From an uncultured Intestinimonas sp. (GTDB taxonomy: Bacteria; Bacillota; Clostridia; Oscillospirales; Oscillospiraceae), in contig NZ_CALXGA010000014.1 of the NCBI RefSeq assembly GCF_944387725.1, forward strand, positions 1 to 37,098: DNA of 37,098 bases, read 5' to 3'. The position numbers and the translations under genes were made by a program. This document shows positions 12,308 through 36,723 of the stretch, piece by piece; position 1 is the first letter of the stretch; each line of letters begins with the position of its first letter. The notes below the pieces were generated by a model. It was not told the DNA's origin, ran no database searches, and saw nothing but the letters and a program-made list of their open reading frames with translations.

Positions 12308-12334
12308 CTGAGGCCGGGGCGGCCTCTTTTTTTG
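12308..12334 (+). terminator. intrinsic terminator after the DUF1540 gene
   Basis: The stem GAGGCC-GGGGC-GGCCTC is followed by a run of seven T, with additional GC-rich pairing at its base. Confidence 0.85.
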
Positions 12335-12335
12335 C

Positions 12336-12364
12336 TTGCGCCTTGATTCCATACGCATTATAAT
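12336..12364 (+). promoter_or_regulatory. sigma-A promoter of xpt
   Basis: TTGCGC (12336-12341), 17 bases, then a consensus TATAAT (12359-12364). The transcript would have a leader of about 50 bases, too short for a purine riboswitch, and I see no riboswitch core. Confidence 0.8.
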
Positions 12365-12421
12365 AGGGGAAAGCGGGCCCGGTGCGGCGGCGCGGATTGA
12401 CACAGAACAGGGAGGACGCAG

Positions 12422-12994: not shown

Positions 12995-12997
12995 GTC

Positions 12998-13414: not shown

Positions 13415-13434
13415 GCACATGCACTGGCAGAAAA

Positions 13435-13472
13435 ACGCCGGCGGGCCTTCTTGAAAAGGTCCGCCGGCGATG
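13435..13472. terminator. bidirectional terminator between convergent operons
   Basis: A 14-base arm (CGCCGGCGGGCCTT) pairs with its near-complement across a short loop at 13436-13469. It sits between the thioesterase stop and the stop of the radical-SAM gene on the other strand. Confidence 0.65.
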
Positions 13473-14603
13473 TTATGGCTCGCCGGTCCAGCGCTCGGTC
13501 AGCAGCCGGTAGAGCCTCTCCAGCCGGGGGTAGGCGTAGGGGAAGAAGGTGCGGTAGGACTCACAGTAGTAGTTCCGGCCAATGCCGTCGGGGCCGTAAT
13601 CCCGGTCCCGGCGGCAGCCCCCCCGGCACAGGGGGAACCAGGTGCACGCCCGGCAGGCGGGGTCGGGCTGGGCGCTGGCCTCCACAAAGCCCAGCTCCGT
13701 CCGCCGGGCGTCCAGGTCTTGGAAGGAGTCGGTGTTCAGGTTCCCCAACCGGTAGGCGTCCAGCATGTAGAAGTCGCAGGGGTAGACGCTGCCGTCGGCC
13801 TCCACCACATACTGCATCCCGCACACCCCCAGCATCCCGCAGGCCTCCGGGGGCTGTCCGTCCAGCATCCGCAGCAGATTCTCAAAATAGCGGTGGTAGG
13901 TCCGCCGCCCGGCCAGGGCCGCCTCGTACCACACATCAAAGGCGGTGCACAGGTACTGCCCGAACCGGCGGGGGTTCAGGGACCAGGGCTGTTCCCCCCG
14001 GGGTTCCCCCAGGGGGTCCAGGCAGGGGATGTACTGCTGGTAGGTGAGGCCATTCTTGACATAGAATCGGTAAATCTTCCGAAAGCTCCGGCACAGGCCC
14101 CCGGTGAGGACGGTGAGGACGTTGACCTCCGCCCCGTGGCGCTGGAGACGCTGGATGGACCGGAACACCCGGTTGAAGGTCCCCCTGCCCTGGGGGTCCA
14201 CCCGGTTGGCGTCGTGGAGGTCCTTGGCGCCGTCCAGGGAGACTCCCACCAGAAAGTGCTGCTCCGCCAGGAAACGGCACCAGTCGTCGTCCAGGAGCAG
14301 GCCGTTGGTCTGGAGGGAGAAGGAGAGGGCGCAGCCGTGGACGTTCCAGCGCGCCCCCAGCTCCACCGCCCGCCGGAAGAAGTCCAGCCCCGCCAGGGTG
14401 GGCTCCCCGCCCTGGAAGCAGATGGTGCAGCGCTCCTCCGCAGCCTCCAGGGCCTTCCGCAGGACCTGTTCCAGGGTCTCTGGAGACATGAGGCCGTAGC
14501 TGGGCACCGAGCGCTTTTGGGTCTCGTCGGCGTAAAAGCAGTACCGGCACCGGAGATTGCACATGCCGCTGGCGGGCTTGAGCATGAGGGTGAGATGGCG
14601 CAT
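13473..14603 (-). CDS. anaerobic sulfatase-maturing enzyme (radical SAM/SPASM)
   Basis: This 376-aa protein is the usual AnSME length. The radical-SAM cluster motif is Cys15-x3-Cys19-x2-Cys22 (MCNLRCRYC). FQGGEPTLAG and the SPASM cysteines (GVCGMQYVVEADGSVYPCDFY, then CRACTWFPLCRGGC and YYCESY) are all present. It would convert the active-site Cys of a sulfatase into formylglycine. ATG 14603 follows AAAGGAGG. It lies 13 bases after the response-regulator gene and is the last cistron of that operon. Its likely client is the CSPSR-type sulfatase at 18181. Other SPASM peptide maturases are possible, but the sulfatase context makes AnSME the best call. Confidence 0.92.
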   Translation of the reverse strand: MRHLTLMLKPASGMCNLRCRYCFYADETQKRSVPSYGLMSPETLEQVLRKALEAAEERCTICFQGGEPTLAGLDFFRRAVELGARWNVHGCALSFSLQTNGLLLDDDWCRFLAEQHFLVGVSLDGAKDLHDANRVDPQGRGTFNRVFRSIQRLQRHGAEVNVLTVLTGGLCRSFRKIYRFYVKNGLTYQQYIPCLDPLGEPRGEQPWSLNPRRFGQYLCTAFDVWYEAALAGRRTYHRYFENLLRMLDGQPPEACGMLGVCGMQYVVEADGSVYPCDFYMLDAYRLGNLNTDSFQDLDARRTELGFVEASAQPDPACRACTWFPLCRGGCRRDRDYGPDGIGRNYYCESYRTFFPYAYPRLERLYRLLTERWTGEP

Positions 14604-14616
14604 GACAGATCCTCCT

Positions 14617-16119
14617 TTAGGAGGCCGGGGAGGGCCTCCGGGCGCGGAGCTGATACTCGTTGGGGTTCTGACCAAAGGTCTTTTTGAAGGCGGTGGAGAA
14701 GTAGCTGACGCTGGAGTAGCCCACCTCCTCGGCGATCTCGTAGATCTTCTTGTCGGTGCGCTCCAGCAGCTCCACCGCCCGTCCCATCCGCAGGTTGTTG
14801 AGGTAGGTGACGAAGTTGAGCCCCGTCTCCTTGGTGAACCGGCGGCTGAAGTACTCGGGGTTGAAGGAGACCTGGCCGGCCACCGCCCCCAGGGTGAGCT
14901 TTTCGGCGTAGTGGGCCTTCATGTAGGCGATGGCCGAGCGGATGGGCTCGGAGCATCTGGCGGGCCGGGGCAGGCCGGAGGCAAAGGGGGCGAAGACCTG
15001 GTCGAGAATGGCGGTGAGCTGCCCCATGTCCGGGGCGGCGGCGATGCGCCCCTCCACCTCCTCCAGCCGGGCCTCCCAGCCGCCGGTCTGCTCCAGGGTT
15101 AGGTGCAGCAGGGTGGAGGCGAAGAAGGCGCACAGCCCCTTCACCGCCTCCAGGTCGGTGGGGCAGTCGTCCAGAATCTCCCGGACGGCCCGGTCCTTGA
15201 TGGCGGCGGCCTCCTGGAAGCGCTGGGCGAAGAGCTCCTTGCTGAAGGATACCTGCCAGGTCTCCACCCGGCGGGGGACAGTCACCCCCACGGACTCCCG
15301 CCAGAAGACCCGGCGCTCCGGGTGGTAGAAGTGGAGGCGGCACCGGGCCTGGGCGGTCCGCAGGGCCTCCGGCAGGGCCTGGAGGCTCCGGGTCAGGCCG
15401 CTGAGCCCTGCCACACAGGGCAGGCTCAGGGACTGGAAGCACTCCACCGCCAGCTGGTAGGCCCCCTCCCGCCGGAGGTTTGCCGCCACCAGCAGGTGGT
15501 CATAGCCCAGAGGGACCATGCAGAGGTTGTCCAGCCCCGGCAGCTCGGCCACCACCTGGCGCAGCCGGGGGAGGGCGGCGCCGTCCCGGCTCCAGAGGTC
15601 GGCGGCCATCAGCAGGCCGTCCTCCAGGGCCACCCCCTGGCGGCGGAGGACCTGGGCGGTCAGGGGCTCCCGGGAGCCCTCCCGGGCCAGCTGCTGGAGC
15701 AGGCGCTGGGCGGCCCGTTCCATGTCGCCGCCCCCGGAAAAGCCCTGGGCCCGAATGGCCTTGGCCGCCTTCTCCAGCACCTGCCGAAGGGAGTTCATGG
15801 TGATCTCGGTCTTGAGCAGGTACTCCGCCGTTCCCTGGGTCAGGGCCCGGCGGGCATAGGAGAAATCCTCGTGGCTGGTGAGGATGATGGCGTAGGCGGG
15901 GTGGAGCTGCTGCATCTGGCGGAGCATCTCCAGGCCGTCCATGCCCGGCATTTCAATGTCGGAGACCACAATGTCGGGCAGCTCCCGGCGGTAGAGGGCC
16001 AGGCCCTGGGCCCCCGAGGCGGCGGCGCCGGCCACCGTGAAGCCGTCAAACCGGTCCACGCAGTACTCCAGCCACTGCCGGATGGGGGCCTCGTCGTCTA
16101 CCACTAAAACCTTCAGCAT
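14617..16119 (-). CDS. AraC-type response regulator (YesN-like)
   Basis: This 500-aa protein has an N-terminal receiver domain with Asp8/Asp9, phospho-acceptor Asp54 (VVSDIEMPGMDG) and a Lys in LLKTEI. A long variable middle region follows. The C-terminal AraC double helix-turn-helix (about residues 400-490) includes VSFNPEYFSRRFTKETGLNFVTYLNNLRM and IAEEVGYSSVSYFSTAFKKTFGQNPNEY. It partners the histidine kinase whose stop codon overlaps its start by 7 bases. YesMN-type pairs commonly control neighbouring carbohydrate or solute transporters. Here the ABC-sulfatase operon 3 kb upstream is the natural target (inference). Confidence 0.93.
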   Translation of the reverse strand: MLKVLVVDDEAPIRQWLEYCVDRFDGFTVAGAAASGAQGLALYRRELPDIVVSDIEMPGMDGLEMLRQMQQLHPAYAIILTSHEDFSYARRALTQGTAEYLLKTEITMNSLRQVLEKAAKAIRAQGFSGGGDMERAAQRLLQQLAREGSREPLTAQVLRRQGVALEDGLLMAADLWSRDGAALPRLRQVVAELPGLDNLCMVPLGYDHLLVAANLRREGAYQLAVECFQSLSLPCVAGLSGLTRSLQALPEALRTAQARCRLHFYHPERRVFWRESVGVTVPRRVETWQVSFSKELFAQRFQEAAAIKDRAVREILDDCPTDLEAVKGLCAFFASTLLHLTLEQTGGWEARLEEVEGRIAAAPDMGQLTAILDQVFAPFASGLPRPARCSEPIRSAIAYMKAHYAEKLTLGAVAGQVSFNPEYFSRRFTKETGLNFVTYLNNLRMGRAVELLERTDKKIYEIAEEVGYSSVSYFSTAFKKTFGQNPNEYQLRARRPSPAS

Positions 16120-17891
16120 GGACTTCCTCCTTTTTCTTCCTCCAGAGCGGGCAGCCGCAGGGTGATCCGGGTGCCCTGGCCCGAGGTGCTCTCGATGTCC
16201 AGGCCCCAGGGGGGCCCAAAGTGGAGGCGGATGCGCTCGTGGATGTTGCGGATGCCCAGGTGGGGCCGGCCGGCGTCCCCCTGGGCGGTCATCACCTCCC
16301 GGATGCGCGCCGGGGTCATGCCCACGCCGTTGTCCTCCACCTGGATGGAGAGGGCCTCCCCCTGCCGCCGGGCGATGACGGTGATGATGCCGCCGCCGGC
16401 CATGTCGATGCCATGGAGGATAGAATTTTCTACCAGAGGCTGTATGAGCAGCTTGGGGACGCGGCAGGCGGCCGCCTGCTCGTCGTACTCGATGAGGGCG
16501 TCGAAGGCGCCGTCGTAGCGGAAGCGCTGGAGCTCCACATACTGCTGGAGGGACTCCATCTGGGTCCGCAGGGGGACCATCTCGTCGGGGGTGGAGAGGA
16601 CTCCCCGGAGCATCTGGATGAAGGTGGTGAGCATGTGCCCCGCCTCCTCATTGCGGCCCATGTCCACCGAGCACTTGATGGAGAAGAGGGTGTTATACAT
16701 AAAGTGGGGGTTGATCTGGGCCTGGAGCCAGTTGAGCTCCATGCGGCGCTTCTCCTCCTCCTTGCTACGCACGCGCTCGATGAGGGCCCGGATGCGCTGG
16801 AGCATCCGGGCCATGCCGGTGCTCAGGTCGGTGAGCTCGGAGAAGCTGTCCATGTCGAAGGTCTGGTTCAGGTCCCCCTCCTCCACCTGCCGGACGTCGG
16901 CGCAGAGCTTCCGCAGGGGGGCGGCGATGCGCCCGGAGAAGACCCAGGCCAGGCCGGTGCCCCCGGCCAGGGCCAGCAGGGCCAGGGCCAGCACCACCAG
17001 CCGGATGCGCACCAGGGGCTCCAGCACCACCGACAGGGGGATCTCCTCAAAGATGGTAAAGCCGCTCTCCGGGTCGCTGTAGCGGGTGAACAGGGCCTCC
17101 CGGCCGGAAATCCGGGTGATGATGTGGTTCTGGTCCCCGAAGAGGGCGTCCAGGTTCCCCATGTGGAAGTAGGAGAAGCCGATGATGGCCTCCCGGCTGC
17201 TGGAGACGATCTGCCCCTCGCCGTTGACCACATAGATGCTGCTGTCGGCGCTGATGACGTCGGCGTACATCTGGTAGAGCTGGCGCTCGTCGGCGTTGAT
17301 CATCAGGTAGCCCAGGATCTCCCCCTGGCTGCTGCGCACCATCCGGGCGGCGGAGTAGGCGTTGCGGCCCAGGGCCCGGTCCCGGTAGCTGGCCACGTCC
17401 ACAATCTCCCCGCCGGCCTGGTAGAGGTCCCGGTACCAGATTTTGATCTTGGGGTTCATGTAGTCGTAGCTGGCCGGGACGGGGCCGGAGCAGTAGCCCA
17501 GGCCGCTCTCGGAGCAGAAGACCACATAGAAGTCCAGGTTGACCTGGTGGAAGGAGACCTGGAGCTGACTGGTAAGCTCGTTCATGTAGCGGGAGAAGGC
17601 CGCCCCCTGGTCCTGGTCCAGGGCCTCCACCGCCAGGCGGAAGCGGCTGTCGGTATAGTAGAGGTTGGAGAGGGTGTAGATGTTGGTCTTGAACTGCCGG
17701 GCCCGCTCGGCGATCTGCCGCAGCACGTCGGACCTGGCCCCGGCGATCTCGTCCACGAAGCTCTTCTGGTAGAAGCCATAGGTCCCCAGGGACAGCAGGA
17801 GGATGATGACCACATTGACGCACAGCAGCATGGCCATGGTCCCCACCCGGATGCTCCTCCACTCCCGTTTTGGCAGCAGGCGGCGCAGCAC
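16113..17891 (-). CDS. membrane sensor histidine kinase (YesM-like)
   Basis: This 592-aa protein starts at GTG 17891, behind a GGGGGGAG ribosome site. Membrane helices at about 18-40 and 294-318 enclose a roughly 250-residue extracellular double-Cache-like sensor. A HAMP segment (about 318-372) and coiled coil lead to the His_kinase motif LQAQINPHFMYNTL with phospho-acceptor His396. The HATPase domain has LVENSILHGI (N box) and DNGVGMTPARI (G1). It forms the start of an operon with the response regulator and the sulfatase-maturing enzyme. The ligand is unknown but may be a sulfated compound, given the context. Confidence 0.93.
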   Translation of the reverse strand: MLRRLLPKREWRSIRVGTMAMLLCVNVVIILLLSLGTYGFYQKSFVDEIAGARSDVLRQIAERARQFKTNIYTLSNLYYTDSRFRLAVEALDQDQGAAFSRYMNELTSQLQVSFHQVNLDFYVVFCSESGLGYCSGPVPASYDYMNPKIKIWYRDLYQAGGEIVDVASYRDRALGRNAYSAARMVRSSQGEILGYLMINADERQLYQMYADVISADSSIYVVNGEGQIVSSSREAIIGFSYFHMGNLDALFGDQNHIITRISGREALFTRYSDPESGFTIFEEIPLSVVLEPLVRIRLVVLALALLALAGGTGLAWVFSGRIAAPLRKLCADVRQVEEGDLNQTFDMDSFSELTDLSTGMARMLQRIRALIERVRSKEEEKRRMELNWLQAQINPHFMYNTLFSIKCSVDMGRNEEAGHMLTTFIQMLRGVLSTPDEMVPLRTQMESLQQYVELQRFRYDGAFDALIEYDEQAAACRVPKLLIQPLVENSILHGIDMAGGGIITVIARRQGEALSIQVEDNGVGMTPARIREVMTAQGDAGRPHLGIRNIHERIRLHFGPPWGLDIESTSGQGTRITLRLPALEEEKGGSPC

Positions 17892-24347: not shown

Positions 24348-24613
24348 CTCGCCGGTTATTTGCTCATCGGTCCAGGGAGCGGTCCGCCCGCCGCCTGGGG
24401 ATGCTTCTCGCCTGTGCAGAGTACACGGCGCAGGTTTTGCGGGCTGGCCCGGTTTTGTGTTAGACTGTGGGTGCGGCGTTCTGGATGCACCGAACCTAAG
24501 GAAGCGCTGATTAAAGCCCATCATAAATGCGTATACAGTGGAAATGGAAAGCAATCGTCAAAGGAAGGGCTTAAATCAGAGGGAAGCAGCCCGTTTTTTC
24601 CGCCTATTCTGGC

Positions 24614-24781
24614 CTAGGGTTTGTTTGAAAAATGTCAACATGCCCAACCGGCGGGTCTTTTGCCCCATGGACGGCGCAATTTTTCCTTGAAATCCGCCAG
24701 GATTCCTGCGAAAAAATTGCTTGCCAGAGGCCCAAAATCCCTCGCTGCTGGACACATCGCCAATTTTCAAACAAGCCCTAA
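24614..24781 (+). repeat. MITE copy E
   Basis: This full-length copy has TA at both ends (left CCTAGG, right CCTAAT). The left terminal repeat reads GGGTTTGTTTGAAA, one base different from the other copies. Confidence 0.9.
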
Positions 24782-28159: not shown

Positions 28160-28327
28160 CTAGGGCTTGTTTGAAAAATGTCAACATGCCCAACCGGCGG
28201 GGCTTTTGCCCCCTGGACGGCGCAATTTTTCCTTGAAATCCGCCAGGATTCCTGCGAAAAAATTGCTTGCCAGAGGCCCAAAATCCCTCGCTGCTGGACA
28301 CATCGCCAATTTTCAAACAAGCCCTAG
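28160..28327 (+). repeat. MITE copy F
   Basis: Full-length copy with CTAG at both ends and intact terminal inverted repeats. It lies in the gap between the two tRNA genes. Confidence 0.9.
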
Positions 28328-28657: not shown

Positions 28658-28731
28658 GCAGGTGTAGTTCAATGGCAGAATGTCAGCTTCCCAAGCTGAA
28701 CACGAGGGTTCGATTCCCTTCACCTGCTCCA
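28658..28731 (+). tRNA. tRNA-Gly (anticodon CCC), host of the element's attachment site
   Basis: Complete cloverleaf with acceptor GCAGGTG/CACCTGC, anticodon loop TTCCCAA (CCC), T-arm GAGGGTTCGATTCCCTT and an encoded CCA end. Its 3' 47 bases are repeated at 36677-36723, so the integrated element restores the gene. Confidence 0.95.
28685..28731 (+). other. attL of the integrated element
   Basis: The 47 bases from the tRNA anticodon stem to the CCA end are identical to 36677-36723. The flanking bases differ at once on both sides, defining the repeat exactly. Confidence 0.93.
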
Positions 28732-28736
28732 AGAGC

Positions 28737-28772
28737 AACCCCTAGAGCCCCAAGGGCTCCGGGGGTTTTCTC
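28737..28772 (+). terminator. terminator just inside attL
   Basis: The stem AACCCCTAGAGCCC / GGGCTCCGGGGGTT is followed by TTCTC. It ends the tRNA-Gly transcript now that the element separates the gene from its native terminator. Confidence 0.8.
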
Positions 28773-28836
28773 TTTGGTTTTAGCTTCCAGAAATTAGGAT
28801 GAAAAGGGCCGAAAATAGGCCGAAATTTTCGGTGGG

Positions 28837-28860
28837 ACAGGTCAGAGACAGGTCAGGTCA
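28837..28860 (+). repeat. putative integrase arm-type repeats, left end
   Basis: ACAGGTCA occurs at 28837-28844 and 28848-28855 (11-base spacing), plus a partial GGTCA. The same pair with the same spacing is found at the other end (36619-36637). Confidence 0.65.
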
Positions 28861-28892
28861 GTCAGGCGGACAAGTCGCTCCCGCTCCACTAT

Positions 28893-29096
28893 TCAGATAT
28901 ACCCCTTGCTCTCCATCTCCAGCAGCAGCTTCACGGCCTCCAGGCGTGCCTCTGGTGTGGCTTTAGGATTGTCTCGAATTTGCCGCAGGGCCTCAACCTG
29001 GGCGGATTTCTCCCGCTCCCTTTTGAGTTGTCGCTCTCTCCTGGCCTGTTCGTTGCGCTTGCGGGTCTCCTGGGCCTTGGCGTGGGATTCATCCAT
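28893..29096 (-). CDS. small charged hypothetical protein of the element
   Basis: This 67-aa protein is almost entirely Lys/Arg/Glu-rich helix (ETRKRNEQARRERQLKREREKS) with a C-terminal ATPEARLEAVKLLLEMESKGYI. The family is not recognised. ATG 29096 follows GGAAGGAGG and overlaps the stop of the previous small gene by 8 bases (ATGGATGA). It is the last gene before attL. Confidence 0.65.
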   Translation of the reverse strand: MDESHAKAQETRKRNEQARRERQLKREREKSAQVEALRQIRDNPKATPEARLEAVKLLLEMESKGYI

Positions 29097-29223
29097 GCTG
29101 GGCGGCCTCCTTCCTCCTATAAAAGTATCTGATGATGTTCCACATCTCCACTTGCTTGTCCTCTGGCAGTGCTTGAATTGCGGCTAGGGCCTGCTTGCGC
29201 AGGGTTTTCAGTTCTTCATCCAT
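29089..29223 (-). CDS. small hypothetical protein of the element
   Basis: This 44-aa protein (MDEELKTLRKQALAAIQALP ... YFYRRKEAAQHG) starts at ATG 29223 with AAAGGAGG upstream. It overlaps the genes on both sides by 8 bases through the same ATGGATGA junction, which supports it as real. It is helical and amphipathic; function unknown. Confidence 0.6.
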   Translation of the reverse strand: MDEELKTLRKQALAAIQALPEDKQVEMWNIIRYFYRRKEAAQHG

Positions 29224-29536
29224 GTTGTGGGACCTCCTTTTCATGGGGAACAGGTAACCCCTGGAGGATGTCAACGGCCCTTAGTAAAAGCGCATTGGAC
29301 GCATAGCAAGCTGCATAAATAGCATCAAAGTTTTGCTCCATCCATTTGAGGGCAGCGGCTCCGCGATCTCCATTTGTCTCCTCGCTCCACGCATCCAACA
29401 AACCTCCACAGGTGCAACCCTTAAAAGTGGGGTCTATCACATCTTCCAAAATACCATTTACGGCGATTACAGCCCGTTCTGCTTCCTCCAGCTCATAGCG
29501 GATATGGTTAGGCGCTATGATATAATCTTTACTCAT
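29216..29536 (-). CDS. hypothetical phage-like protein of the element
   Basis: This 106-aa acidic protein starts at ATG 29536 behind CAAGGAGG; the longer frame upstream has no ribosome site. It contains a CTCGG pair of cysteines and a helical C-terminal half (WMEQNFDAIYAACYASNALLLRAVDILQGL). The family is not recognised. Head of a three-gene overlapping run. Confidence 0.65.
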   Translation of the reverse strand: MSKDYIIAPNHIRYELEEAERAVIAVNGILEDVIDPTFKGCTCGGLLDAWSEETNGDRGAAALKWMEQNFDAIYAACYASNALLLRAVDILQGLPVPHEKEVPQHG

Positions 29537-29598
29537 ACTTCCTCCTTGAATTATGTGGGAGGCCGTGATACAATGACCACGACCTCCTTTGTGTGGTC

Positions 29599-29742
29599 TT
29601 ACTGCCAGGCATCCACAAGCGCCTGGTGCAGGGTGGCATACCGTTTGCCTCGGTAGTACCATGTACCCATGTGGTATCTCACAAGCTGCCCTCCTTTCGG
29701 CTCCTCCCCGGTGTTGCCGCACTGGAGAGGGGCTTTTCTCAT
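29599..29742 (-). CDS. small phage-like protein (47 aa)
   Basis: This gene starts at ATG 29742, whose ATGA overlaps the stop of the upstream 89-aa gene. It encodes MRKAPLQCGNTGEEPKGG, then VRYHMGTWYYRGKRYATLHQ, ending DAWQ. An internal GTG at 29682 with AAAGGAGGG upstream could also initiate, giving 27 residues. The WYYRGKRYATLHQAL pattern looks like small accessory proteins of clostridial phages; function unknown. Confidence 0.55.
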   Translation of the reverse strand: MRKAPLQCGNTGEEPKGGQLVRYHMGTWYYRGKRYATLHQALVDAWQ

Positions 29743-30008
29743 GCTACCTGGAACCGACGGACGGTGGTTTCCCGGGTGAACGCCTGGGCCACATCCGGCA
29801 GGGCCTTTTTCAGGGCCGTGGTGTCGATTCTGGCGGTCTTTACCGACTTCCAGGTGATTTTATACTCCCCGGCCTGGACGGCCTCCTGGTCCCCCATGTG
29901 GGCCTTGATCGCGTCCTTGATGGCCTCCGCCTCTGCCTGGGCCTCCTCGATCAGGTTTTGGAGCTGGCGCAGCTCCCGGCACTTCATTTCTAATTCGTTG
30001 ATGCTCAT
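29739..30008 (-). CDS. phage accessory protein (Gp157-like C-terminal motif)
   Basis: This 89-aa protein starts at ATG 30008 behind AAAGGAGG. Residues 1-40 are coiled coil (ELEMKCRELRQLQNLIEEAQAE). The C-terminus, AGEYKITWKSVKTARIDT, LPDVAQAFTRET and RRFQVA, resembles small proteins near recombination genes in clostridial phages and the Siphovirus Gp157 group. No recombinase is next to it here. Function is not established. Confidence 0.7.
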   Translation of the reverse strand: MSINELEMKCRELRQLQNLIEEAQAEAEAIKDAIKAHMGDQEAVQAGEYKITWKSVKTARIDTTALKKALPDVAQAFTRETTVRRFQVA

Positions 30009-30114
30009 TGTGTTGACCTCCTTTTATATTGGGAGCAAGCGGCTGGTGGCTCTTAAGTCTTCCTTGCCTGCACTGTGTGACTTCTATCCTGTCCAGCTCT
30101 TACGTTGTCGTTCA

Positions 30115-30309
30115 TATCGGTTCCCAAAAGGCAAGAAAGACACCATCAAGGCCCACGCAGAATCCCACGGCCAAAGCGTGAATAGCTTCATCAACGAGGC
30201 CATCGACGAGAAGATGGAGAGGGACGGCACCCCAGGGGGATTAGAAAAATCTGCCAGCCCCCCCACCTCACCACTCCGAGTAGTCGCAAAAATTCCAAAG
30301 CGTTTCTAA
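30115..30309 (+). pseudogene. fragment of an Arc-type ribbon-helix-helix protein
   Basis: The plus-strand frame YRFPKGKKDTIKAHAESHG through SFINEAIDEKMERDG matches the RHH core of small Arc/HicB-like regulators. These normally begin with about 15-20 more residues. No start codon or ribosome site precedes it in frame, so it is a 5'-truncated remnant facing against the surrounding genes. Confidence 0.6.
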
Positions 30310-30312
30310 AAG

Positions 30313-30361
30313 GGTTTCAAAAAATAGCGGGAGTAGCCAGTTATTGGCCGCTCCCGCTTGC
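30313..30361 (-). terminator. terminator of the helicase-TerS operon of the element
   Basis: GCGGGAG and CTCCCGC pair across about 17 bases, followed on the minus strand by TATTTTTTG. It lies just past the 54-aa gene. Confidence 0.7.
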
Positions 30362-30382
30362 TTTGTGCGCTTGGGGGTATAG

Positions 30383-30547
30383 TTACCCTTCCTCTGCTGT
30401 TTCGGGGCTGTAATCGCTTGCTGTGCCGTTGTTTTTTGAGAAAGAGCCGCCATTGGTCAGCCCTGCCCGGTTCGGGTTCTTGCCAAAGCGGAAAGGGAAT
30501 AGGGGACAATCAGGGCATTTCAATCGGATAGCCTTTAAGGGTGTCAT
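30383..30547 (-). CDS. small phage-type CxxC protein (54 aa), shortened
   Basis: ATG 30547 overlaps the upstream stop codon (ATGA). The product reads MTPLKAIRLKCPDCPLFPFR, then FGKNPNRAG and a polar tail. It resembles a very common clostridial prophage protein that reads AIRAKCLDC...LCP..DCPLYPFRFGKNPNR. Here the middle with the second cysteine pair is missing, leaving one CPDC, as if by an in-frame deletion. The role of the family is unknown; metal binding is plausible. Confidence 0.65.
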   Translation of the reverse strand: MTPLKAIRLKCPDCPLFPFRFGKNPNRAGLTNGGSFSKNNGTASDYSPETAEEG

Positions 30548-31482
30548 ACGCTGCGCCCCCCGTTGATGTAGTATTGCAATCCCTCGTTTGCCTTTCGGTT
30601 CGCCTCGGCCATCTCCGCCCCCATCCTGCGGGCCTCGTCCTCTGCCGTTGCGGTGTCCTCTGCATCTATCATCTGTGCGGCGGTTAATTTATCCTGCGCC
30701 CTCTGTTCTGCGGCGGTCACTTCCTCGCCGGTGTCCTCGTCCTTATAGGGCTTGTATTCGGAAATCTCCGGCACGACCTGTGCCGCCCACTTCTCCCCGG
30801 CATTGTCCACCGCCTTCATAATGCTTTCCACACTCTGAATCTGCGTAATTAAGTATGTGCTGCTTGGCCTTCCGGCTGTGCCGTAGATACTCCCATCAGC
30901 CCGGCGCAAAGGCATATCCGGCATAACCTGTGCGGCCTCGTTGATGTAGTCCATACTACCGGCAAACAGCAAAGGCGGCTGCGCCATCTTCTCCAGCCGG
31001 TCAATAATTCCGCTGTACTCTTTGACGGTGGGGAATCGAACGGAAACGCCGCTTTTCTCCGCAACACTCGCCAGACAGCGGAGCGCAAGGGAATTTCCGC
31101 TTGCATCATAGGAAAGGGCTTTTACCTCTGCTGAATCCAGCTTAATTCCAAATTCGTTGTAATATGTCAAGGTCTGCATAAACGCCCTATCCGGGGCGGC
31201 GGTCATGTGGTCTACAAGCGCAGTACGGAGAGCCGGAATAATCGTACCGTGGATATAATCACAAAATTCTTTTTCAGATTCTTCGATTTTCTTCCGTGTG
31301 CTATATTTCAGATCCCCGCTGTGTTCGTCAATATAAGCCTTTTCGTCCTTATATTTGCTTGCCTCACTCCTTACTCGCTCCATGCCGGAGCGATAGGCGG
31401 ACAGATCATCAATAGCCCCTTGTTTCAGCTTGTCATACTCACGGCGGACAGATTCAAATTGACGCTTGATATTTTTATCCAT
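30544..31482 (-). CDS. hypothetical coiled-coil protein of the element
   Basis: This 312-aa protein starts at ATG 31482 (GGAAAG upstream), overlapping the upstream gene by 8 bases. The N-terminal 75 residues are charged coiled coil (FESVRREYDKLKQGAIDDL, RSEASKYKDEKAYIDEH). A central part has predicted globular segments (TLTYYNEFGIKLDSAEVKALSYD). The C-terminal 60 residues are again acidic coiled coil. I do not recognise a family. Its position after a TerS-like gene would suit a packaging or capsid-interference function, but nothing in the sequence proves it. Confidence 0.75.
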   Translation of the reverse strand: MDKNIKRQFESVRREYDKLKQGAIDDLSAYRSGMERVRSEASKYKDEKAYIDEHSGDLKYSTRKKIEESEKEFCDYIHGTIIPALRTALVDHMTAAPDRAFMQTLTYYNEFGIKLDSAEVKALSYDASGNSLALRCLASVAEKSGVSVRFPTVKEYSGIIDRLEKMAQPPLLFAGSMDYINEAAQVMPDMPLRRADGSIYGTAGRPSSTYLITQIQSVESIMKAVDNAGEKWAAQVVPEISEYKPYKDEDTGEEVTAAEQRAQDKLTAAQMIDAEDTATAEDEARRMGAEMAEANRKANEGLQYYINGGRSV

Positions 31483-31717
31483 TGTGTTTTCTTTCCTTTC
31501 TGATGCAAAAATGTTCGATGTAGTCTTTAATCCTGTGCGGCGGGTACATGGTAATAGTTTGGCAACGCCAGCAGAAACAAGCCCATGAATAGACCTCATC
31601 CGGCGCAAACTGCCAGCGCCCATTTACCATTGTTCCGTATAGGTTGCCCCGCTCGATATGGCCGTAAATTGTACTTGGGCAAATACCCGTTGCCGCAATC
31701 ACTTCTCCTGTGGTCAT
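31475..31717 (-). CDS. small helix-turn-helix protein of the element
   Basis: This 80-aa protein opens with a MerR/HTH_17-like helix-turn-helix (MTTGEVIAATGICPSTIYGH, then a WQFAPDEVYSW wing). A Cys/His-rich tail follows (CFCWRC, HFC) that could bind metal. ATG 31717 lies 9 bases after the TerS-like stop. It is probably DNA-binding; target unknown. Confidence 0.65.
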   Translation of the reverse strand: MTTGEVIAATGICPSTIYGHIERGNLYGTMVNGRWQFAPDEVYSWACFCWRCQTITMYPPHRIKDYIEHFCIRKERKHNG

Positions 31718-31726
31718 ATCCGCCCC

Positions 31727-32302
31727 CTATTCATCATCCACAATGACGCTGCCGGCAATTCTGGCCTCAAGCGCTGCTTGGTCGAGCGAATCGCCGAGCG
31801 GGGTTTCTGTCTTTGCCACAATCTCCACGCTTTCCCGCAAGCCGTAAAGGGCTTTTTGCAGGAAAATTGCCGTGATATTGTTGCAATCGTTCCTTAAACT
31901 CGCCTCTGCCAGAATATCGGAAAACGAATCCCGGCATAGTTCCAGCCAATCAGCCGTTTTTGCTGGGCTGTGCCTCCAAATGCAATCATAGACCGCTTGG
32001 CGGGATAAGCCCATAGACCGGGCAAGACCAGCGATAGAAGGGAAGGAGGAGGACGTTTCACACGCCCGCAGATAATAAACCGTCCGCCGCTTTACTTCCT
32101 CGGTGTCAGTCAGCGTCACCGGCTCCGCCGTGGCCGCTGCGGTTAGTTCATCCGTGGTTTTCGCAATCAGGGCGGCTAATCGTTCATCCACGAATTGCGA
32201 CGCCTCAACCTTGTATAGTTTGCTCTTGCTTTTCTGCTCCGCCCCATCCGCCACCATTTCAGGAAACGTCATGGCCGGGGAGTTATTGCCGTGGTTCTTC
32301 AA
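31727..32302 (-). CDS. terminase small subunit-like protein (putative TerS)
   Basis: This 191-aa protein starts at TTG 32302 behind GAAGGTGAT. A helix-turn-helix (FPSIAGLARSMGLSRQAVYD, residues 87-106) is followed by SFSDILAEASLRNDCNNITAIFLQKALYGLRE. This order (xxIxGLAxxxGxxRxxxY, then FSDIL, then a repeated-helix IFLxKxxYGxRE) is that of phage terminase small subunits that recognise pac sites. No large terminase subunit or structural gene accompanies it. Satellite islands of the PICI class use such a TerS to redirect helper-phage packaging. A plain DNA-binding regulator is the alternative. Confidence 0.55.
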   Translation of the reverse strand: MKNHGNNSPAMTFPEMVADGAEQKSKSKLYKVEASQFVDERLAALIAKTTDELTAAATAEPVTLTDTEEVKRRTVYYLRACETSSSFPSIAGLARSMGLSRQAVYDCIWRHSPAKTADWLELCRDSFSDILAEASLRNDCNNITAIFLQKALYGLRESVEIVAKTETPLGDSLDQAALEARIAGSVIVDDE

Positions 32303-32419
32303 TCTATATCACCTTCATTAACTCAAGAAATTATGTAAACCTTTACACGAAAAAGGGTCTCTTGGAGAAAAATGAACAAATGAACCGCAAAGCCTTATGC
32401 CGCAAGGGTTTTCGGGTCT

Positions 32420-32512
32420 GGTGGTGGAGGTTGCGCAACTTTGCTATAAATACTCCTATATAAACGTTTTTTCCGTTTTTATATAATTAATGCTAGGTTG
32501 CGCAACCCTCGC
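32420..32512. other. candidate replication origin of the element
   Basis: GTTGCGCAAC (32430-32439) and GGTTGCGCAACC (32496-32507), both perfect palindromes, flank a 56-base block that is roughly 80% A+T. The block lies directly downstream of the SF3 helicase gene. In staphylococcal pathogenicity islands, iterons flanking an AT-rich stretch 3' of the rep gene form the origin; the parallel is inferred. Confidence 0.6.
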
Positions 32513-32519
32513 CACCCAA

Positions 32520-34103
32520 TCAAGCTAAGAATTTTGCTTGACGGTCAATCTTTAGTCCGATCCAAAACTTACTTCCGTGTGGGTTTCGCTTGGAAAATCC
32601 GCGTCCTTCCATGGCTGCATTGAAATCAGTTGAACGCCGAACATAGTCGCCGGACTCCTCCGCCCATTGGCGATAAATCCTGTACAACTCTCCCGCCGGT
32701 GCTTTTGCCTCTGGTTCCATAACACACTGCTCTGAAAGAAAATTTTCAAGCCAATCTTCACGTTGCCGATATTCTTCGGCGGCTATTGCGATCACATCTG
32801 GAAGGGTAAGTTTATATTTGTTCCTCGCAAAATTCACAGCTCCTTGAACGACCCAGGCAAGAATGGCGGGGCCAGCTTCCCGAACAAGAAATTCACTGTA
32901 ATTTGAAATACCACTGCTTTCTGGTATCCGTGCCTTGAACTCCACTGGAATCAAACGTCTCCATGTACCGTCATCGGTGGAGCCGACACGGGGGAGGTAA
33001 TTGCTGTGAAGAATTGTTGTGTGCGATGGGATAAAGGTTTCTTTCTGCTTAAATTTTGCGGCTGCTGTTATTGGATCGGTGCTTGTTATCTTCTTCATTG
33101 TTGCAACAGATAGCCTGCGGCCTTCTTCAAGTTCTCCACAAACAACCAGACGCTTGCCACGCAACTCCACAATATCCGCGCCTCTGCTTCCTTGGTTGTT
33201 ATTTGCAATTAAAATGTCTGCGTCCATCCCGTCCGCATAATCCCCAAAAGTGGCGCACACTGAATTTGACAGTGTTGATTTTCCATTTCTGCCCCCACCA
33301 AAATATAGAAGTAAAACTTCCTCAAACACTTTTCCATATGCAGACATCCCAAATTGCATTTGTAATCCGCCAATCATGGAACCGTTGCCTTGTGATATAG
33401 TGTTGAGAAAATTCAGCCATAACTCCGCCCCCTTGGTTCCTGGTGAAACAGCGGTGATCTTGGTGCAGAATCGCTTGGGGTCATGTGGCATCAGCTTCCC
33501 CGTTGGTAGATGGACAAGCCCGGCGGGTGTGTTGAGTATGTCGGGGTCAGCGTCCAAAATAGAGGGGTCAATAGCTAGTTCGTGTTTTGCCAGTTCCAGC
33601 ATTGCCTTGATCCGGCGTTCGTTGCGGAGCTGCTGGGCGTGGTCTAGGTACGACTTTGCACTCTTGGTGATCTTCTTGGCCTTGTCCTTCGCCTCGTCGT
33701 CCTGCGTCCCTTCGCTGACGGCAACCTCCACTTCTGCCTGCTGCTGGACAGCGGCAAAATATTCCCTCTTGGCATCCTCCAGCATATCGGCGGATAGTTT
33801 ACCGGCCAACTTGAAAGCCTGGTGGTCGTTGGCCTCCCACCGCTTACCGTCGTAGGCCAACCATCCCCGGCTGTCGGTGTATATGAGCTGTTCGCGATAT
33901 GTCCGACAGAAAACATCTGCGTTCCCACTGTCAGAGAAATCGGGCGGGCGCAACTCGCACCCTAGCAGGCGGGCGGGGTGTCCGTCGCTCCCGCTCCACT
34001 CGTCCTTATAGATTTGCTCCGCTGTTAGTCCGGCGTTAAGTCTTGCCTGCGCCCATGACAGGGAAGCGCCCTCTGATAGCAGTCTGTTTAAGTAGTCTGG
34101 CAA
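32520..34103 (-). CDS. SF3 replicative helicase, phage P4/D5-primase C-terminal type
   Basis: This 527-aa protein starts at TTG 34103 behind AGAGGGGTG. A D5_N-like region (about 100-260) precedes the superfamily 3 helicase core: Walker A GGGRNGKST (269-277), Walker B-like RLVVCGELEEG (about 318-328), motif C TTILHSNYLPRV with Asn368, and the arginine-finger region WRRLIPVEF. A C-terminal winged-helix-like region follows. No toprim/AEP primase domain is visible, so it may be a helicase-initiator only. Such proteins replicate phage satellites and small integrated elements. It lies in the minus-strand operon after the excisionase-like genes. Confidence 0.9.
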   Translation of the reverse strand: MPDYLNRLLSEGASLSWAQARLNAGLTAEQIYKDEWSGSDGHPARLLGCELRPPDFSDSGNADVFCRTYREQLIYTDSRGWLAYDGKRWEANDHQAFKLAGKLSADMLEDAKREYFAAVQQQAEVEVAVSEGTQDDEAKDKAKKITKSAKSYLDHAQQLRNERRIKAMLELAKHELAIDPSILDADPDILNTPAGLVHLPTGKLMPHDPKRFCTKITAVSPGTKGAELWLNFLNTISQGNGSMIGGLQMQFGMSAYGKVFEEVLLLYFGGGRNGKSTLSNSVCATFGDYADGMDADILIANNNQGSRGADIVELRGKRLVVCGELEEGRRLSVATMKKITSTDPITAAAKFKQKETFIPSHTTILHSNYLPRVGSTDDGTWRRLIPVEFKARIPESSGISNYSEFLVREAGPAILAWVVQGAVNFARNKYKLTLPDVIAIAAEEYRQREDWLENFLSEQCVMEPEAKAPAGELYRIYRQWAEESGDYVRRSTDFNAAMEGRGFSKRNPHGSKFWIGLKIDRQAKFLA

Positions 34104-34120
34104 AATCTTTCACCCCTCTC

Positions 34121-34149
34121 TTGTGCTTTGGGAGTGGTTGTGATATAAT
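34121..34149 (+). promoter_or_regulatory. plus-strand promoter opposing the helicase operon
   Basis: TTGTGC (34121-34126), exactly 17 bases, consensus TATAAT (34144-34149). It points toward the excisionase-like gene, against the direction of the local genes. Confidence 0.7.
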
Positions 34150-34155
34150 GAACAA

Positions 34156-34238
34156 AAAAGCATAGGAAGGGATACCACACCACATCTCTCCTGCCTCCCG
34201 CTCCACCGTGCCACCGGTTGGGCGGGATTTCTTTTGTT
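34156..34238 (+). ncRNA. candidate small RNA of the element
   Basis: A transcript from the promoter above would start near 34156. It would end at a hairpin (CCCGC plus CCACCG paired with CGGTTGG plus GCGGG, one bulge, about 34198-34228) followed by ATTTCTTTT. No ORF longer than five codons (MNKKA) fits. The sequence is antisense to the leader of the helicase gene. Confidence 0.45.
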
Positions 34239-34242
34239 CTGG

Positions 34243-34479
34243 TCACTGTACCACCCCCTGGGAGAACAGGTCGTCCAGATAGGCCACTAGGTCATCCCGG
34301 CGGAAGAACCAGACTTGTCCCTGCTTGCGCCCATTAAGGGTCCCTTGCCGGGCCATCCGCGCCACCGTCTCCGGGGTGAGCCGAAGGAGAAGCCCGGCCT
34401 CTGCTGCGCCGCAAATTACAGGCAGTTCCTCCACGTCGTGGATAATGCGGCGGGGTTTATTGATCCTTCTGGTCGTCAC
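34243..34479 (-). CDS. excisionase-like helix-turn-helix protein
   Basis: This 78-aa protein starts at GTG 34479, overlapping the upstream stop (GTGA). The HTH_17/MerR-like domain reads CGAAEAGLLLRLTPETVARM, then RKQGQVWFFRRDDLVAYLDDL. That is the standard form of excisionases and recombination directionality factors encoded with tyrosine integrases. It probably controls excision, and possibly also the operon. Confidence 0.8.
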   Translation of the reverse strand: MTTRRINKPRRIIHDVEELPVICGAAEAGLLLRLTPETVARMARQGTLNGRKQGQVWFFRRDDLVAYLDDLFSQGVVQ

Positions 34480-34670
34480 GCTCCCACCTCCCGCTCCAGG
34501 GCAAGTTCCTGAATCGCCTGCATGATCCGCTCCTCTTTATCGGTTGGAAGCGGAAATCGGAGCCAGCGCGTCATGGTCGGCTGTGATACCCCAATCTTGG
34601 CGGCGATCTGCCAGAGTGGCACATCTGCAACGCGAGCTGCCCTTCTGACGACTTCATTTGTACGCGTCAT
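34476..34670 (-). CDS. small HTH regulator (Cro-like)
   Basis: This 64-aa protein starts at ATG 34670 behind GGAGGG. It carries the helix-turn-helix VPLWQIAAKIGVSQPTMTRW followed by EERIMQAIQEL. It is the first gene of the leftward operon and is divergent from the 215-aa repressor. This is the Cro/Str position in phages and islands. Confidence 0.75.
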   Translation of the reverse strand: MTRTNEVVRRAARVADVPLWQIAAKIGVSQPTMTRWLRFPLPTDKEERIMQAIQELALEREVGA

Positions 34671-34723
34671 TTTGTTGATCCCTCCTTGACAGTTGATTTT
34701 TTTACTGTATAATTGTTCTTAGG

Positions 34724-34808
34724 ATGATTAAATCATAACAAAAATCTCTGTGCTTTACCAGCAGAGAATAGTAAATTATTTTCTGATTATCGCGTATTTT
34801 GTTGATTA
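34724..34808. promoter_or_regulatory. divergent operator region of the element
   Basis: The AT-rich gap between the divergent regulators (34671-34829) contains a 13-base dyad ATGATT-A-AATCAT (34724-34736). Two further TGATTA half-sites lie at 34784-34789 and 34803-34808. These are plausible operators for the repressor or Cro-like protein. Confidence 0.5.
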
Positions 34809-34829
34809 TTTTCGACTTAGGAGGAATAC

Positions 34830-35477
34830 ATGAACAAAGAAAAACTTTCGCTAAAAATGGGGGAGCGCTTGCGGAAGCTCCGCAAAAGCAGAGGTCTTTC
34901 CTATGAAAGGTTGCAGGCCGCTATTTCTGAAAAATATGGAGTGGAGATTTCAAAGGACAGTCTTATAAATTATGAAGTGTCGGACGAAAATCACACAAAA
35001 CGCTTTAAGAACAACGGAATGAGGGTCGAGTATTTACGGTATTTCTCTGACTTCTACCATGTGTCGGCTGACTATCTTCTGGCTCTTTCTGACATAAAGG
35101 CCACTGATTCCACAACCCGCGACATCTGCGAGAAGACCGGTCTGTCAGAGCACACAGTCTCTCGTCTCACGCAGGACGACAAGCGGGACAAGTGGGCGGA
35201 GGTGATAGACCAGCTTGTCCTTCATCCCGGCATATTGGACGCGCTCCACGCCTATCTATTTTTTGATGTAGACTACTTTGCAACTGTGGAAGATGGGAAA
35301 GCATCTGACGACCATAAGAAAGTTATGGTCCTAGGAGATAGTGCGCAGAAGAAGGTTGTGCCGGTTTATCCCCGCATGATGGATGGGGCCTTGCAACTAG
35401 AGGTACAACGGGAATTGTCGGACATTAAGCAGCAGGTGAAAAAGGGGAGGCGTGAAAATGCCAAAGAAGAGGGCTGA
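34830..35477 (+). CDS. CI/Stl-like HTH repressor
   Basis: This 215-aa protein begins with an XRE-type helix-turn-helix (GERLRKLRKSRGLSYERLQ ... ISKDSLINYE, residues about 12-48). LRYFSDFYHVSADYLLALSD is typical of clostridial phage and ICE repressors. The C-terminal half is unique and lacks an S24 LexA-like protease Ser/Lys dyad that I can see. Derepression may therefore need a partner protein, as with SaPI Stl. ATG 34830 follows TAGGAGG. Its end overlaps the integrase start by 20 bases, so the two are translated together. Confidence 0.85.
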   Translation: MNKEKLSLKMGERLRKLRKSRGLSYERLQAAISEKYGVEISKDSLINYEVSDENHTKRFKNNGMRVEYLRYFSDFYHVSADYLLALSDIKATDSTTRDICEKTGLSEHTVSRLTQDDKRDKWAEVIDQLVLHPGILDALHAYLFFDVDYFATVEDGKASDDHKKVMVLGDSAQKKVVPVYPRMMDGALQLEVQRELSDIKQQVKKGRRENAKEEG

Positions 35478-36615
35478 CGGGCGGTATTGCAGTCAAATCT
35501 ATCTAGGGCGGGACGAAAATGGACGAAAGAAGTATAAAACTGTCTATGCTGCCAATCCTGCGGAGCTGAAGGAGAAGGAAACAGAAGTTCGTCAGCAGCT
35601 CGGACTAGGGATTGATCTTCTTTCCTCCCGTGATACCTTTGCCCGGTGGGCGGACGATTTTCTGAAATTGAAGAACGCCGCCGACATCACCGCCCGGCAA
35701 AAGGAGAACTACCGCCACGCTGTGGAGGAGTGGAAGCAGCACCTCTCTCATTACCAAATGGCCGATGTGCGGGCCGACGACATAGAGCGGTTCCTTGTTA
35801 AGCTCCAGGAAGACGGTAAGGCCGCCCGCACGGTCAATTTCTACCACTCCACAATAAAACAAATCATGCAGAGGGCTGTGGGCCGCATCATCCCCAGTAA
35901 TCCCGTCGACCTGGTACAACTGACACAACCGGGAAGGGCCGCAGAGAAGCGCCGCGCGCTGACTGCGGAGGAGCAAAAGTGGATATGGGACACACCTCAC
36001 CGGGGGCAACCTGTGGCGGTTATTATGATGCTCTCTGGGCTCCGGCGTGGTGAGCTGGCAGCGCTGACCTGGGCTGACGTTGACCTGAAAGGCAAGACCA
36101 TCACGGTCAACAAGGTCATCGAGTACCCGCCAAACGACACCCCCGTATTACGCCACCTGACCAAAAGCGCCGCAGGGATGCGCGTGGTGGACATCCCCCA
36201 GAAGCTGGTGGACTACCTCTCCCAAATACCTAGAGACAATGCCCTGGTGATCCACACCACCGACGGGCGGGTTATGACTCCCACGGCCTGGGAAGCCCTC
36301 TGGAAGTCCTATATGCGTCTGCTCAATATCAAGTATGGAACCCGCACACCCGCCGATCTGGAGAAAATGAAAAAGCCGGGTCAGCGCAAGTTTGACATGA
36401 CGATTCCGCCCATCACCCTGCACTGGCTCCGGCATACGTTCTGCACTCTGCTGTACCTCTCCGGCGTTGATGTCGTCCAAGCCTGTGCCCAGATGGGCCA
36501 CGCCGATATCCAGACCACCCTTCGGATTTACACGCACCTGGACAGTTTACATAAAAGAAAAAGTGTGGACAAATTGGACGCTTATTTAGGGGGCGCGAAC
36601 GCCGAAAATTTCTAA
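35458..36615 (+). CDS. int: tyrosine site-specific integrase
   Basis: This 385-aa protein has an N-terminal Tn916/AP2-like arm-binding domain (KRADGRYCSQIYLGRDENGR), a SAM-like core-binding domain (about 55-150) and a catalytic domain. The catalytic residues are Arg196 (SGLRRGE), His322 and Arg325 (LHWLRHTF), His348 (MGHADIQTT) and Tyr358 (IYTHLD). ATG 35458 is 7 bases after GGGGAGG; a GTG at 35452 is too close. It lies beside attR, the usual place for an integrase that targets a tRNA 3' end. Confidence 0.96.
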   Translation: MPKKRADGRYCSQIYLGRDENGRKKYKTVYAANPAELKEKETEVRQQLGLGIDLLSSRDTFARWADDFLKLKNAADITARQKENYRHAVEEWKQHLSHYQMADVRADDIERFLVKLQEDGKAARTVNFYHSTIKQIMQRAVGRIIPSNPVDLVQLTQPGRAAEKRRALTAEEQKWIWDTPHRGQPVAVIMMLSGLRRGELAALTWADVDLKGKTITVNKVIEYPPNDTPVLRHLTKSAAGMRVVDIPQKLVDYLSQIPRDNALVIHTTDGRVMTPTAWEALWKSYMRLLNIKYGTRTPADLEKMKKPGQRKFDMTIPPITLHWLRHTFCTLLYLSGVDVVQACAQMGHADIQTTLRIYTHLDSLHKRKSVDKLDAYLGGANAENF

Positions 36616-36618
36616 AGG

Positions 36619-36637
36619 ACAGGTCAAATACAGGTCA
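36619..36637 (+). repeat. putative integrase arm-type repeats, right end
   Basis: ACAGGTCA occurs at 36619-36626 and 36630-36637, the same 11-base spacing as at 28837-28855. It starts immediately after the integrase stop codon and ends 39 bases inside attR. Confidence 0.65.
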
Positions 36638-36676
36638 AAAAGTGGCTCAAACCATTGGGAATACTACATTTCTTTT

Positions 36677-36723
36677 AGCTTCCCAAGCTGAACACGAGGG
36701 TTCGATTCCCTTCACCTGCTCCA
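36677..36723 (+). other. attR of the integrated element
   Basis: This is a 47-base exact copy of the 3' part of tRNA-Gly(CCC), from the anticodon stem to CCA. It marks the right end of an element of about 7,992 bp (attL to attR). Confidence 0.93.

Follow-up and report, generated by a model that had tools for sequence, protein, structure and literature searches.

A probable phage satellite in a tRNA-Gly gene of an uncultured Intestinimonas sp. and its modular relatives

What kind of mobile element occupies the tRNA-Gly(CCC) gene of an uncultured Intestinimonas sp.: a phage satellite, the remains of a prophage, or an element that moves without phage particles? We addressed this question in a window of 37,098 nucleotides (contig NZ_CALXGA010000014.1 of assembly GCF_944387725.1, positions 1 to 37,098; contig C14 of genome G000, which is 84.7% complete; G, C and L numbers denote genomes, contigs and loci). 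The last 47 bp of the tRNA gene recur as an exact copy 7,992 bp away, and the element enclosed by these two attachment (att) repeats has a GC content of 52.2%, compared with 63.3% in the remaining window. Based on its gene content and relatives, we consider this element, which is about 8 kb long, to be probably an intact, helper-dependent phage satellite.

A repressor and a tyrosine integrase lie on one strand beside the distal repeat, and the opposite strand carries genes for a Cro-like protein, an excisionase-like HTH_17 protein, a replication helicase, a protein resembling the terminase small subunit (TerS), an 80-aa helix-turn-helix (HTH) protein, a 312-aa protein and several small open reading frames (ORFs) (Table 1). 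The original prediction had described exact att repeats, a GC content below that of the flanks, an integrase at one end, a repressor divergent from Cro-like and excisionase-like genes, and a superfamily 3 helicase, and all of these were recovered: the integrase matched both Pfam Phage_integrase and phrog_1, and the helicase combined D5_N and DUF5906 domains. The predicted lack of recognisable capsid, portal, tail, large terminase subunit (TerL), lysis and conjugation genes held as well, as none of these families matched the scanned window ORFs at E 0.01 or better, and structural or lysis names appeared only at chance level (E 0.029 and above). Nine structural and terminase reference proteins gave no tblastn match to the element, and none of the five window proteins scanned with PADLOC matched at E 0.01. 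Compared with a phage collection, the whole element yielded two short nucleotide matches, covering 4% and 2% of it.

We detected 13 further small elements bounded by repeats, with spans of 6.3–10.9 kb, one of them in the same genome (L007). The helicase search matched 52 of 300 genomes of the same family, and relatives of at least 49% identity over at least 328 residues were found at ten places in nine other genomes; flanking repeats were present at five of these places and none were found for L071, L077, L078, L079 and L080. The bounded relatives use tRNA-Met, Thr, Arg, Val and Gln genes and one non-tRNA site (L048, 10,848 bp; L072, 7,203 bp; L074, 7,230 bp; L075, 6,838 bp; L076, 6,768 bp; L073, 9,639 bp; L093, 8,554 bp; L094, 9,118 bp; L109, 9,543 bp; L112, 6,298 bp; L114, 6,305 bp, with one mismatch in its repeat; L006, 8,445 bp, with a 24-nt repeat at 92% outside a tRNA gene). 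Among the 14 bounded elements, the window element included, the TerS model was found in five, a tape measure in one, TerL in one, and a capsid or portal in none, according to a reference set (4 TerL, 2 portal, 1 capsid and 2 tape-measure proteins) that distant versions could escape. The predicted satellite nature is thus supported by 13 repeat-bounded elements of a comparable reduced plan, and by a TerS family common to loci with TerL and portal genes.

This TerS family was recovered, own genome included in each count, in 8 of 400 genomes of the same family by a four-sequence profile, in 5 of 394 genomes of the same order by a two-sequence profile, and in 2 of 200 genomes by the window protein alone; G614 gave a weak match. 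L035, L036 and L098 contain a gene of the family together with TerL and portal matches within the same stretch, and two phage contigs (L053 and L054) also contain one. The TerS model matched five of nine phage-like loci, L036 and L053 by construction. Judging from these sequences, the family occurs in phages and small elements alike. The window protein shares 47% identity with its homolog in L006 and 64% with that in L048, and three of the eight relatives tested exceeded the GP3_package cut-off (L006, 34.9; L033, 34.3; L094, 30.7), with the other five below it (L097, 29.2; L048, 27.6; L036, 25.0; L053, 24.8; L054, 23.5). The window protein gave one weak tblastn match among 50,697 phage records, and nothing useful came from searching solved structures with profiles of the TerS (A3) and 312-aa (A4) alignments.

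The 312-aa protein is represented in fewer genomes. The single protein was found in 2 of 400 genomes of the same family and profile A7 of its family in 8 of 285 genomes of the same order, own genome included in both. By blastp, the window protein linked strongly to L048 and weakly to L094 (3.9e-4), the remaining members being linked among themselves, and a 15-member model recovered the members together. The family was present in 10 of the 14 bounded elements (two of them weak: L074, 7.9e-5, and L072, 2.7e-4) and in 7 of 8 element loci that were fragmentary or unbounded, that is, in 17 element loci with the window counted and the two weak ones included, and in none of the nine phage-like loci. 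These counts come from models built from the members, which therefore match by construction, with the negative loci left out of the model, and a single prophage supplied two of the nine phage-like loci (L037 and L038). Three queries of the family gave no tblastn match in the 50,697 phage records, the window protein had no match in 72,556 plasmid records, and scans of viral contigs with the protein or its alignment found no relative. A 217-aa protein of L075 was considered as a further member and left uncounted, its profile match being weak (probability 9.5).

Several relatives place this family next to genes of virion assembly. In L048, the closest relative (exact 46-bp repeats in tRNA-Met), a TerS gene is followed by a small ORF, a gene of the 312-aa family (36% identity to the window protein), small ORFs, a tail-chaperone-like gene (phrog_183, 7e-5) and a tape measure (phrog_1535, 1.8e-34; both within 6276-9241), and no capsid, portal or TerL was matched in this element. 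We read a T TTT TTC heptamer, in frame within the tail-chaperone-like gene, as the passage to the following frame. L097 (1392-9317), from the same genus, carries a gene of the family directly upstream of a major capsid gene (PF17236, 1.6e-49), as well as a tape measure (phrog_1535, 3.8e-29), a TerS-like gene (phrog_606, 1.4e-7), a repressor and an integrase; the stretch seen, whose helicase end is cut by the contig edge, had no match to the four TerL and two portal references. In L113, the order is a TerS-like gene (phrog_2538, 1.1e-5), small ORFs, a gene of the family and a tape measure (phrog_58, 1.3e-51), and in L095 and L096 it is TerS, a gene of the family and a small cysteine protein. 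L109 (6847-10195, tRNA-Met) combines a TerS-like gene (phrog_2538, 2.5e-6) with TerL (phrog_2, 9.9e-47), a small ORF and two genes of the family; its integrase reads as two ORFs. For L075, the PHROG search indicated a TerS-like protein (8.4e-5), and a scaffold-like match was weak (0.0076). From this gene context we infer that the 312-aa protein is a virion-assembly factor.

Table 1. Features of the element and its target gene in the window (positions of the whole stretch; aa, amino acids)
Feature	Position	Strand	Evidence or remark
tRNA-Gly(CCC), integration target	28658-28731	+	ARAGORN
attL, 47-bp core within the 3' half of the tRNA	28685-28731		exact repeat with 36677-36723
67-aa ORF	28893-29096	-	61% over 41 aa with an L048 ORF; sub-threshold SpoIIIAH-like Pfam match
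61-aa ORF	29089-29274	-	ORF only
ORF of about 106 aa	29216-29536	-	ATG start chosen inside a longer listed ORF; no PADLOC match
89-aa protein, RecE-type exonuclease C-terminal-like	29739-30008	-	phrog_434, 5.5e-15; 66-79% homologs in L007, L050, L073
Arc/CopG-like coding stretch, start unclear, perhaps a remnant	30130-30309	+	within ORF 29593-30309; resembles Arc-like ORFs of L007, L071, L073
54-aa small cysteine protein, encoded downstream of the 312-aa protein	30383-30547	-	33-40% to 71-78-aa proteins of L095, L096, L097
312-aa helix-rich protein, proposed virion-assembly factor	30544-31482	-	36% homolog in L048; profile family
80-aa HTH_17/MerR-like protein	31475-31717	-	Pfam HTH_17, 2.4e-5, below cut-off
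191-aa terminase small subunit-like protein	31727-32302	-	Pfam GP3_package, 27.9 bits (cut-off 29.4)
Origin-like site, two GTTGCGCAACCT palindromes around an AT-rich stretch	32428-32508		directly 3' of the helicase gene
527-aa D5/SF3-type replication helicase	32520-34103	-	PF08706, 1.3e-28; PF19263, 2.4e-11; phrog_1883, 9.1e-140
HTH_17 protein, excisionase-like	34243-34479	-	PF12728, 1.7e-9; phrog_1840, 2.9e-5
Cro-like HTH protein	34476-34670	-	phrog_17740, 8.7e-12; 40-46% homologs in L006, L073, L076
Putative divergent control region, cro/repressor	34671-34829		short direct repeats
215-aa HTH repressor	34830-35477	+	PF13560, 5.2e-6 (sole match above cut-off); phrog_8, 2.4e-13
Tyrosine integrase	35452-36615	+	PF00589, 3.5e-17; phrog_1, 1.2e-66
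attR, 47-bp core	36677-36723		exact repeat with attL

The gene set suggests how such a satellite would operate. The repressor would keep the element silent in the tRNA-Gly gene; since it has no Pfam match to an S24 peptidase domain, relief by a protein of the helper phage would be likelier than SOS cleavage. The integrase and the HTH_17 protein, both encoded between the repeats, would then excise the element at the 47-bp core, and the D5-type helicase would replicate it from the palindrome pair 3' of its gene. The TerS-like protein, by homology, could direct the large terminase of the helper onto satellite DNA, and the 312-aa protein would act on the assembly of the helper virion, its likeliest target being the size of the head, which would then suit a small genome. 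Finally, the particle would inject another cell with the DNA, which would integrate in tRNA-Gly there. Our confidence in a satellite extends to all of these steps except the action of the 312-aa protein, which we weigh separately below.

In the proposed origin, the AT-rich stretch between the GTTGCGCAACCT copies falls to a minimum of 20% GC per 50 nt. With one mismatch allowed, GTTGCGCAACCT had four matches in the window, namely two sites on both strands, compared with a mean of 0.24 in shuffles, none of 100 of which reached four; the pattern had been picked after being noticed. When the window was divided into 738 overlapping tiles of 218 nt and any identical pair of 10-nt palindromes was counted, independently of the pattern, three tiles had one, about as many as this one site would yield. 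PICIs (phage-inducible chromosomal islands) have their origin directly 3' of the replication gene (PMC6092414), and several of the 11 other loci compared contained short direct repeats 3' of the helicase instead of a palindrome pair.

The same tRNA gene is used by a prophage in another species of the genus. In G556, on one contig, the tRNA-Gly gene and a 26-bp repeat 39,192 bp away enclose a TerL (PDB terminase large subunit, 5.6e-42; 93.7% identical to the human fecal phage record MT835625.1), a capsid protein (PDB major capsid protein, 3.9e-63) and ORFs that match annotated phage terminase and portal proteins. In a search for empty tRNA-Gly sites in sister genomes, as had been proposed, the last 26 nt of the tRNA gene were single-copy in the stretches covered of six sister loci (L040-L045), the seventh (G556) being occupied, and this result is weak, as the neighbourhood of L040-L045 is not syntenic with the window and L040 stops shortly past the tRNA.

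If the element were the decayed remnant of a full prophage, having lost its structural genes and kept those for integration, regulation and replication, the 39-kb prophage in the same gene of a sister species would fit, as would the RecE-like C-terminal fragment of 89 aa and the shortened Arc-like ORF and 54-aa protein. We nevertheless judge this very unlikely, given an exact 47-bp att repeat, open frames of the integrase, repressor, helicase, TerS-like and 312-aa genes, and a match between the G556 prophage and the window ORFs that is limited to a distant integrase; the absence of the 312-aa family from the nine phage-like loci argues in the same direction. The original prediction had named decay as its own refutation, and against it stand the 13 similarly reduced elements, which are comparable in size and have direct repeats on both sides, at varied sites. 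It had also asked whether the TerS-like and 312-aa proteins match conjugative-element proteins. An integrative mobilizable element (IME-like), moved by conjugation or natural transformation and not by phage particles, would account for the four bounded relatives that have neither the 312-aa family nor a TerS profile, and it appears very unlikely to us all the same: no relaxase or conjugation family was recognised in the window ORFs scanned, the plasmid search with the 312-aa protein was negative (none was run with the TerS-like protein), TerS relatives stand beside TerL and portal genes, and relatives carry TerS, TerL, capsid and tape-measure genes. A number of observations weigh against an intact satellite or against the roles we assign to its parts. 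The window TerS-like protein falls just below the cut-off of Pfam PF16677 (P22 gp3), matched no TerS PHROG, and gave an AlphaFold model too poor to use (mean pLDDT 46.4); the TerS-like call therefore stands by family homology and not by the window copy itself, and we count a packaging gene as present because the 47% homolog in L006 passes the Pfam cut-off. Nine of the 14 bounded elements have no TerS profile, and four (L075, L076, L073 and L007) lack the 312-aa family by profile. In the own genome, as far as it is complete, the TerS profile matched the window gene only, which does not point to a cognate helper there; the shortened Arc-like ORF and 54-aa protein could mean early decay; and no identical palindrome pair stood at the corresponding place in the 11 other loci compared. 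The 312-aa protein of the window had no Pfam or PHROG match, its AlphaFold model was too poor to use (mean pLDDT 54.0), and nothing came of comparing the profile of its family with the gene that lies before the capsid gene of phage L099.

Given a satellite, the 312-aa protein may quite possibly act on head size, as its family gene directly precedes the major capsid gene in L097 and two copies follow TerL in L109. A reading that overlaps with the satellite one, in which the protein is a tail-assembly, virion or interference factor and not a head-size factor, is possible but less likely than not. The genes of the family in L048 and L113 lie upstream of tape-measure genes, no similarity to a known scaffold was found, and the L094 member (10265-11308) ends in a LysM domain above the Pfam cut-off (22.6 vs 20.9), a further point against the head-size role. 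We take such a domain to be no less fitting for a protein of the tail or of another part of the virion than for a head scaffold, and because of it we lowered our estimate for head size and raised that for a tail or virion protein. Under this reading, concatemers could also be packaged in full-size heads, as reported for PICMIs (phage-inducible chromosomal minimalist islands; PMC10803314); the DUF5906 domain of the helicase is one of the two primase domains used in the PICMI search of that paper.

Compared with known satellites, the element resembles the PICIs of Gram-positive bacteria (type SaPI, Staphylococcus aureus pathogenicity island), with which it shares, following PMC6092414, an integrase and repressor on one strand, divergent Cro and Xis genes, a replication protein, a putative origin-like site 3' of the replication gene and a TerS-like gene, with no structural or lytic genes recognised. 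In particular, the integrase and master repressor read one way and the xis and replication module the other, as that paper describes. The window element differs in its D5-type helicase without a separate primase domain match, its gp3-like TerS and the prophage that uses the same tRNA-Gly gene in G556. Its length is 8.0 kb, and PICIs are given 12–15 kb in PMC6092414 and a mean of 9.5 kb in PMC10803314. PICI att sites are described in PMC6092414 as never occupied by prophages, a statement made per species; applied to the genus, the G556 prophage contradicts it. As for genes exclusive to PICIs, the comparison of the 312-aa family covered phage records and phage-like loci, neither of which yielded a member. 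We call the element PICI-like from its genes and do not claim strict PICI membership, because the sister-species prophage occupies the same tRNA gene. Capsid-forming PICIs resemble L097, and not the window element, in combining a capsid, a TerS-like gene, an integrase and a tape measure with no TerL or portal match; the window element has no major capsid gene of its own, and L097 is cut by a contig edge. The PLEs (phage-inducible chromosomal island-like elements) of Vibrio cholerae differ from the window element in host and in its lack of a tape measure, the tail function of its relatives is predicted from their genes, and the remaining PLE gene content presumably differs too. The likeness lies in L048 and L113, which carry tape-measure genes (L048 also the tail-chaperone-like gene), and PLEs are described as the earliest known case of a satellite that supplies its own tape measure to form chimeric tails (PMC12987554, which also shows capsid-forming PICIs with putative tape measures). 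PICMIs are likewise small and have an integrase, an HTH excision-type factor and a DUF5906-type replication protein; they are Vibrionaceae elements, their model being anchored on fis (PMC10803314), whereas the window element lies in tRNA-Gly and has TerS-like and 312-aa genes.

Two phage sequences suggest a type of helper rather than a helper itself. The own genome has one TerL match, on contig C54 (L081, 1781-8729), where visual inspection of the neighbouring ORFs suggested TerS, portal, scaffold and capsid genes; as a cognate helper this block is only a candidate. Also by eye, exopolysaccharide-like genes lie next to it, and an ORF rich in Gly-Pro repeats lies close to the end of the contig. 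The other is MT835537.1, a phage record of 37.7 kb from feces in which TerL and portal were matched; its capsid is 65% identical to that of L097, and its tape measure is related to the one in L097. Another record, MT839419.1 (4,298 bp, human feces, Mexico), encodes a helicase of 50% identity to that of the window, a homolog of the 89-aa protein at 66%, and an integrase. These virome records may stem from the particle study PMC8361208, whose text gives no matching accession, and they would hint at packaging. MT837742, MT839419 and MT837944 were considered as whole circular satellites and dropped, as they have no terminal repeats.

Judged from their sequences, the relatives form a modular family, and we found no description of the protein that it has in common. 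We tentatively propose that they represent an undescribed modular satellite lineage, whose hallmark would be a satellite-only assembly protein of the 312-aa family encoded after terS, re-sizing or re-routing helper virions; individual members would add a tape measure and tail chaperone, a major capsid or TerL of their own, and the lineage would bridge PICIs, capsid-forming PICIs and PLE-like tail hijackers. Satellites are known mainly from a few cultured bacteria. A satellite lineage that recurs in this order would, if the proposal is true, represent a so far unrecorded way in which genes are transferred and phages controlled, and the 312-aa family would offer a sequence handle for finding such elements. 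Its genes beside capsid, terminase and tape-measure genes would make virion reprogramming by small satellites testable in a new group, and the members with a tape measure would extend the idea of chimeric PLE tails reported in 2026 (PMC12987554). Among the papers listed by our searches we found no publication on satellites of this host group, judging by titles and abstract openings, with subscription literature mostly outside the scope; capsid-packaged DNA in Oscillospiraceae is reported in PMC12946183, in whose main text the word 'satellite' is absent.

The predicted overlapping small phage genes were borne out in part: the 89-aa protein matched a RecE-like PHROG, and the others had no clear phage match. 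The 54-aa protein lacks the cysteine-bearing stretch of its 71-78-aa relatives. L007 (C67 of the own genome, 282-11138), the second small element of this genome, has 45-bp tRNA-Met repeats 10,812 bp apart and encodes a DUF3987-type primase, sigma-like and phrog_32441 proteins, and the 89-aa gene in common with the window element. The L006 element of G054 carries near one end (5819-6472) an Mrr-type nuclease (PF04471, 5.8e-26; PADLOC ZorD-type, 2.4e-16), possibly a defence cargo, and the helicase-bearing L071 of G572 contains an ORF of 1,689 aa (11264-16333) with no PADLOC match. Finally, a 168-bp imperfect palindrome occurs in the window at 28160-28327, 10490-10658 and 24612-24780, resembling an intergenic repeat of the MITE (miniature inverted-repeat transposable element) or REP (repetitive extragenic palindrome) type; it occupies dozens of places in the own genome (88 matches over both strands), mostly at 92–99% identity, and has fewer copies in sister genomes, among them G558, G560 and G561.

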